Shown: positions 9,091-10,343 of the stretch, one piece after another
Position numbering within the stretch: position 1 is the first letter of the stretch
Layout of the letters: the number at the start of each line of letters is the position of its first letter
The notes under the pieces: generated by a model
Told to the model about the DNA's origin: nothing
Databases searched by the model: none
What the model saw: only the letters and a program-made list of their open reading frames with translations
NCBI GenBank assembly: GCA_024640945.1
Contig: JAHEEA010000030.1
Span: forward strand, 62,001-126,000
Direction: 5' to 3'
Source: Candidatus Methylopumilus sp.
GTDB taxonomy: Bacteria > Pseudomonadota > Gammaproteobacteria > Burkholderiales > Methylophilaceae
Length of the DNA stretch: 64,000 nt
Translations under genes and position numbers: made by a program

Positions 9091-9188
9091 GGTTGTTTGA
9101 TTTTTCAGTTAAACTGTACACATTATAGAAGCATAGCTTGGTAGAAGGTTCACCAATCTCAGTTTATTACTCAAATTTAATGGAAATC

Positions 9189-9740
9189 ATGATGGCAAAT
9201 CCCAATGACAATTTAATCTGGCTAGATATGGAAATGAGTGGCTTGTTGCCAGATGCCGATCGTATTTTAGAATTGGCTGTTGTCGTTACAGATGCCGACT
9301 TAAATGTTATTGCAGAGTCTCCAGTGCTCGTAGTTCATCAATCTGATGCTGTTCTCGATGGGATGGATGCATGGAATAAAGGAACGCATGGTCGTTCAGG
9401 ATTGATTGAAAAAGTGAAAACTTCAACAATAGACGAGGATGCGGCAGCGGAGATTATGTTGGCTTTCTTGAAGCAACACGTGCCTGCGGGCAAGTCGCCA
9501 ATGTGTGGCAACTCTATTTGTCAGGATCGACGTTTTATGGCCCGCTACATGCCTGATTTAGAAAAGTATTTTCATTACAGAAATCTTGATGTCAGCACTT
9601 TCAAAGAGCTGGCCCGTCGCTGGAAGCCTGCGGTGTATTCGGGATTCAAAAAAGCTAGCCGACATGAAGCGTTAGCGGATATTTATGAATCAATCGATGA
9701 GCTTAAATACTACCGGGAGCATTTTATTAAGCTTGATTAA
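9189..9740 (+). CDS. orn: Oligoribonuclease
   Basis: [31 protein letters not shown]. Confidence 0.97.
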
Positions 9741-9760: not shown

Positions 9761-9788
9761 TAAAAAAATGGGTGCAACTGGTGCACCC
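9761..9788 (-). terminator. Intrinsic terminator, minus strand
   Basis: GGGTGCACCAGTTGCACCCATTTTTTT on the minus strand (7-bp perfect stem, T7). Confidence 0.8.
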
Positions 9789-9827
9789 TAAAGGAGGAGA
9801 AAAGCAGCTTAGGAGTAAGCTCGCTTT
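9762..9827 (-). ncRNA. Candidate small RNA with anti-Shine-Dalgarno motifs
   Basis: Minus-strand RNA: hairpin AAAAGCgAGCTTA-CTCC-TAAGCTGCTTTT (loop CTCC), linker CTCCTCCTTTA, then terminator hairpin GGGTGCA-CCAGT-TGCACCC followed by A and T7; no convincing ORF. Confidence 0.6.
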
Positions 9828-9834
9828 TATATAA

Positions 9835-9849
9835 GCATTTAGCGTGCCA
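9835..9849 (-). promoter_or_regulatory. Sigma54-like -24/-12 promoter for the candidate sRNA
   Basis: Minus strand TGGCACG-CTAA-ATGC: GG-N10-GC spacing as in TGGCACG-N4-TTGC; predicted start falls at the 5' arm of the first hairpin. Confidence 0.5.
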
Positions 9850-9959
9850 GCTTCTTTTTTGCGTTTGGTGAGCTTTAAAAACGATGTGAAACTCATAGTT
9901 AACTTGTTAATTAATAATGTTTTTAATCTTTAATCTTGAATGAACAAAAGGGAACTTGA

Positions 9960-10343
9960 ATGGGGTGGACTGCTTTTTTTTCTGTGGGATTAGGTGCCGC
10001 AATTGGTGCATGGCTAAGATGGCTGCTCAGTTTAGGGCTTAATGCAGTATTCCCATTACTTCCACTTGGAACTTTGGTAGCTAATATGGTTGGTGGCTAC
10101 TTGATGGGTTTGGCCATGGGAATCATTGCGTTGGGTGGCATGGTCAGCCCAGAGTTGCGTTTGCTAGTCATCACAGGATTTCTTGGAGGCTTAACTACTT
10201 TTTCAACGTTCTCAGCAGAGTCTGTTAATTTATTTTCAAGAGGTGAATATGGCTGGGCTTCTATGCATTTGTTGAGCCATTTATTAGGGTCTCTTCTAAT
10301 GACAGGTCTTGGTTTATTAACTGTTCAATTGTTAAAACAATAA
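9960..10343 (+). CDS. crcB: Fluoride ion transporter CrcB/Fluc
   Basis: LGTLVANMVGGYLMG ... TGFLGGLTTFSTFSAE. Confidence 0.95.
   Translation: MGWTAFFSVGLGAAIGAWLRWLLSLGLNAVFPLLPLGTLVANMVGGYLMGLAMGIIALGGMVSPELRLLVITGFLGGLTTFSTFSAESVNLFSRGEYGWASMHLLSHLLGSLLMTGLGLLTVQLLKQ

Follow-up and report, generated by a model that had tools for sequence, protein, structure and literature searches.

The minus strand between orn and crcB in a Candidatus Methylopumilus genome carries what is likely a stand-alone small RNA (sRNA) gene of the Methylophilaceae, driven by sigma54, most likely activated by NtrC, and pairing with Shine-Dalgarno regions. It was identified within a 64,000-nucleotide stretch of DNA (the window), where positions 9849-9762 contain, in order, TGGCACGCTAAATGC, a CTCC-loop hairpin, the linker CTCCTCCTTT, and a terminator that ends in seven T residues. 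The promoter and the RNA structure are well supported by comparative sequence analysis, from which we also infer transcription, NtrC control, and Shine-Dalgarno pairing. All of the elements described in an earlier, sequence-only reading of this DNA are present on the minus strand where that reading had placed them. The features of the region are as follows.

9138..9740, plus strand: orn (oligoribonuclease), convergent neighbour; NCBIfam NF003765, 287.6 bits against a cut-off of 106
9762..9826, minus strand: predicted sRNA, ~63-65 nt; covariance model R1 match at 9762-9831
9788-9762, minus strand: intrinsic terminator GGGTGCA-CCAGT-TGCACCC-A-T7, also recovered by pattern scan
9799-9790, minus strand: single-stranded linker CTCCTCCTTT, predicted Shine-Dalgarno-pairing seed
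9828-9800, minus strand: hairpin 1 from the predicted fold, AAAAGC-g-AGCTTA-CTCC-TAAGCT-GCTTTT, with loop CTCC at 9815-9812
9835..9849, minus strand: sigma54 -24/-12 promoter box TGGCACG-CTAA-ATGC (GG-N10-GC), read directly from the sequence
9960..10343, plus strand: crcB (fluoride exporter), divergent neighbour; NCBIfam NF010792, 147.7 bits against a cut-off of 125

The start of the sRNA is an estimate (9823-9828) derived from the position of the -12 element, and its end is placed at the T-run. A 71-nt RNA from this region folds with an energy of -23.3 kcal/mol (z = -5.06), and none of 200 shuffled sequences folds equally well. The genome to which the window belongs has one copy of the sRNA at full strength.

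A 99-base query was compared with 120 Methylophilaceae genomes using blastn. Nineteen clear homologues were found in other genomes, and all 20 loci—including that of the window—lie beside orn. The covariance model R1 represents the RNA part only, aligned from after the -12 element and with the promoter excluded; it matches in 124 of 187 Methylophilaceae genomes, in 93 of the 119 good genomes, and in 21 of 24 genera, and the RNA has diverged such that many of these homologues are missed by blastn. The conservation among relatives on which the sequence-only reading had staked its proposal is thus found in 124 of the 187 family genomes. The R1-negative genomes, among those listed, are mostly from two streamlined genera (g14 and g16), which keep rpoN and NtrC and yield no sRNA match. 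Beyond the family, a survey of 399 genomes of the order returned only six weak hits, of which five follow AmtB-like C-termini in one genus and the sixth lies elsewhere; all six lack a sigma54 box. In 399 genomes of the phylum, R1 has no match outside the Methylophilaceae. At the loci in genus g42, of another family of the order (L153-L156 and L158, in five genomes), a CTCCCC motif and a terminator lie directly 3' of the AmtB-like C-terminus; there is no sigma54 box, and these elements are possible sRNAs derived from the amtB 3'-UTR.

Up to 30 nt upstream of each of 100 homologues was scanned for a sigma54 box using the pattern TGG[CA][AC][CT]N6TGC (TGG-N9-TGC). The box is present in 97 of the 100, with 83 at identical spacing, where about 0.002 is expected per segment scanned, and these 97 cases are not independent events, the homologues being kin. 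The box constitutes an independent test, since R1 was built without the promoter, and as some weak R1 hits elsewhere lack it, it does not simply follow from the search; the sigma54 box proposed from the single sequence therefore holds its spacing across relatives although it lies outside the search model. Beyond what the pattern demands, TGG is followed by CA in 100% of cases and then by C or T, and TGC is followed by TT in ~97-98%; the box spacer and the DNA upstream of the box are poorly conserved. Two features of the functional class of sigma54-dependent sRNAs, a -24/-12 element with GG-N10-GC spacing and a genome that encodes rpoN and an activator, are found here.

Structures and motifs were counted in 96 distinct homologues, in an alignment that was fitted to R1 and so favours structure. 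Both helices covary, with 99.0% of cells paired and changes on both sides in eight of ten pairs; none of 500 shuffles does as well, and structures slid along the alignment are paired in 33-51% of cells. Changes on both sides are seen in two of the three core pairs of hairpin 1 and in six of the seven terminator pairs (99.4% of terminator cells are paired), and those in the terminator are clear despite the model-fitted alignment, as where 27 and 34 sequences have UA in place of CG. A hairpin precedes the terminator in all 96 homologues and has YUCC in its loop in 83; CTCCY is in the unpaired linker in 89, CTCCTCC occurs somewhere in 77, and at least two CTCC motifs are present in 95. The linker in most relatives is CTCCTCCC, where the window has CTCCTCCTTT, and no ATG was found inside the predicted RNA. 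The two-hairpin RNA with exposed CTCC, as originally described, is thus conserved with compensatory changes.

The gene order around the sRNA differs from that first described. orn is present at all 20 aligned loci and is convergent with the sRNA in nearly all homologues. In nearly all relatives the upstream gene on the same strand ends in a GlgA C-terminus, one of these being a glycogen synthase confirmed by NCBIfam, and crcB is on this side in the window's species and one same-genus species. The orn-crcB interval in which the sequence-only reading had set the sRNA is therefore peculiar to a few species, and the conserved order is glgA-sRNA-orn; since the sRNA is still present where crcB replaces glgA, its place beside orn is kept independently of crcB. 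The terminator, which had been taken as dedicated to this transcript, is present by pattern scan, but in relatives it is also 3' of glgA and there need not serve the sRNA alone.

Additional sRNA-like copies with a sigma54 box were found at L161 (G082:C17), L165 (G171:C12), L166 (G026:C17), L235/L250 (G159:C5), and L169 (G006:C1). These are in unrelated places, in single species, with L235/L250 located behind glnK-amtB, and this suggests a small multi-copy family. The window's genome also has a weaker second model match near lysS (L160; G000:C28:27450-27520, plus strand; 37 bits, E 2.5e-5), with a CTCC-loop hairpin and a terminator and without a sigma54 box; it may be a further sRNA that uses an ordinary promoter.

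Of 120 family genomes, 115 carry rpoN. In the window's genome just one domain is a strong match to a sigma54 activator (E 2.8e-73; all others E >= 2e-7), and the protein that contains it is NtrC (TIGR01818, 707.8 bits against a cut-off of 558.6), whose gene adjoins that of NtrB. The pattern TGGCAYN6TGCWT has 18 sites in this genome compared with one in the reversed control, most of them within coding sequence; those ahead of genes, besides the sRNA, precede ntrBC, the torF-glnK-amtB operon, and an ATP-grasp operon. Perfect GCAC-N7-GTGC dyads are located at -79 of ntrBC and at -67 of the ATP-grasp operon. Upstream of ntrB (L264; G000:C11) the sigma54 box is accompanied by the perfect NtrC dyad TGCACTAAAGTAGTGCA, a likely arrangement for NtrC autoregulation of ntrBC; at L258 (G000:C7:129797-129813, minus strand) a box and the perfect dyad AGCACTTGATTGGTGCG stand before an apparent ATP-grasp gene, so named from the gene's sequence.

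In the window's genome, the 250 bp preceding the sRNA contain no canonical NtrC dyad, the torF-glnK-amtB operon of the same genome is likewise without one, and dyads upstream of the homologues are not enriched over shuffles. A perfect dyad is upstream of the sRNA in one same-genus species (L145), and in another species a boxed second copy directly follows glnK-amtB, which points to NtrC control too. That the sRNA occurs together with rpoN and NtrC is uninformative because both are near-universal, including in genera without the sRNA, and the window's genome is 96.6% complete, such that another activator could be missing. Taken together, the comparison suggests NtrC control of the sRNA in its own genome as the best inference, and the sRNA is probably switched on when nitrogen is short.

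An alternative that we consider unlikely, yet deserving of weight, is that the sRNA is sigma54-dependent but in most of the family has an activator other than NtrC, or responds to NtrC indirectly, with a signal that is not simply nitrogen. The failure to find a conserved dyad upstream would fit this, as would the many more activator-like candidates seen at first look in larger relatives and the role of the upstream neighbour, glgA, in carbon storage; NtrC is, however, the only clear activator in the window's genome, torF-glnK-amtB also lacks a dyad there, and one paralogue of the sRNA lies behind glnK-amtB.

The remaining alternatives dispense with a trans-acting sRNA altogether. The region could be a bidirectional terminator between convergent glgA and orn with no dedicated transcript, as the element is between convergent genes in most relatives and hairpin 1, read on the plus strand, runs into TTTT and might terminate orn transcription. 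We regard this as improbable, in that it does not predict a -24/-12 box that keeps its spacing in 97 of the 100 homologues, the conservation of CTCC in both loop and linker, or boxed copies at unrelated loci, and the element persists where crcB replaces glgA. Proximity to orn, with convergent orientation in nearly all homologues, would equally suit a cis-antisense RNA acting on the 3' end of orn mRNA, but conservation is concentrated in the CTCC motifs and the compensated stems rather than in plain complementarity, and boxed paralogues occur away from orn, so that this reading too has little probability. Still more remote is a crcB 5' leader or riboswitch, or a small protein gene: the window's species has crcB alongside, and a frame of 49 codons runs through the region, but crcB is on the wrong strand for a leader and absent at most homologues, and a coding function is at odds with the lack of an ATG inside the predicted RNA and with length changes that are not in threes. 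The fluoride riboswitch, the crcB leader in Rfam, gave no match even at E values up to 10, and the crcB leader reading is refuted by strand and synteny.

For the preferred reading, that of a sigma54-driven sRNA most likely under NtrC, the following mechanism is proposed. RNA polymerase with sigma54 would start at the -24/-12 promoter and yield an RNA of ~65 nt ending at its own terminator; the activator in the window's species would most likely be NtrC, in which case the RNA should rise under nitrogen shortage. The loop CTCC and the linker CTCCTCCTTT, which is complementary to Shine-Dalgarno sequences, would base-pair with target mRNAs at the Shine-Dalgarno region, reducing their translation, and the sRNA thus probably blocks ribosome-binding sites on other mRNAs. 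Predicted linker-mRNA duplexes have energies of -13.1 kcal/mol for glnK, -11.0 for torF, and -10.6 for amtB, which rank at the top against 62 genes of the window (median -5.2); this ranking was drawn up post hoc, Shine-Dalgarno strength confounds it, and the three genes are candidates only. As members of the nitrogen regulon they could close a feedback loop, although these named targets are speculative. The extended Shine-Dalgarno complement, GGAGGAGA-N2-11-ATG, matches no gene in the window's genome, and the looser GGAGGA has 15 hits compared with eight in the reversed control.

At the gathering score, Rfam 15 yields only a tRNA in the window and no family at the homologue loci, consistent with the distinct sRNA that the sequence-only reading had supposed. 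Other sRNAs are also transcribed from sigma54 promoters by NtrC-type activators. The Qrr sRNAs of vibrios, which have a sigma54 promoter and an NtrC-type activator (PMC10162802), have the promoter type in common with the Methylophilaceae sRNA, but their sequence is unrelated.

Two rhizobial sRNAs offer closer parallels. MmgR of Sinorhizobium meliloti (alpha-r8; RF00519, suhB) is 77 nt long, is linked to carbon storage, and is raised in expression by NtrC on nitrogen depletion, with control of mmgR through a dyad between its -35 and -10 boxes (PMC8401924). It resembles the Methylophilaceae element as a small RNA with a hairpin, a UUUCCUCCCU-type linker, and a terminator, and differs from it in that the mmgR promoter is not of the -24/-12 type (PMC8401924). 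RF00519 is the most recurrent weak Rfam match at the homologues (22-29 bits, best 29.0, against a gathering score of 41); none of 100 family genomes exceeds the cut-off of 41, the weak hits are scattered over many loci, and membership was rejected. NfeR1 (alpha-r14, 'cuckoo'-type), also of S. meliloti, has a sigma70 promoter and three hairpins that each carry unpaired CCUCCUCCC; it is repressed by NtrC, acts in the nitrogen stress response, and pairs at the ntrB translation start, silencing that gene (PMC10746234). Unpaired anti-Shine-Dalgarno motifs are common to both, whereas the Methylophilaceae sRNA has two hairpins, a -24/-12 promoter, and presumed NtrC activation. With one CTCC in loop 1 and CTCCTCC(C/T) in the linker, in place of the three CCUCCUCCC hairpins required, it is not a member of the cuckoo class (PMC10746234), from which it had been thought distinct at the outset. 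A betaproteobacterial sRNA, NcS25 of Burkholderia cenocepacia, has a 7-nt stretch complementary to a Shine-Dalgarno sequence; ncS25 adjoins a porin gene, is constitutive, and has no upstream sigma54 box (PMC10117139), and it was rejected as a match.

Our literature search found no report of such an sRNA from the Methylophilaceae, a family in which regulatory RNAs seem barely described. We class the element as a new sRNA family of a functional kind already known, the sigma54-dependent sRNA; the combination of a sigma54 promoter with anti-Shine-Dalgarno motifs was not met in the sRNA literature compared, and parallels the rhizobial nitrogen-linked sRNAs. A more ambitious reading—a family-wide sRNA driven by sigma54 and NtrC that exerts negative feedback on torF-glnK-amtB, tunes nitrogen against carbon storage, and arose independently of rhizobial MmgR and NfeR1—is offered tentatively and as a doubtful extension. 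The Methylophilaceae are abundant methylotrophs of freshwater and soil, and conservation in 21 of their 24 genera indicates that the sRNA is probably important to them. For a genome that has essentially a single sigma54 activator, the sRNA would provide a compact model for the passage from nitrogen status to translation.
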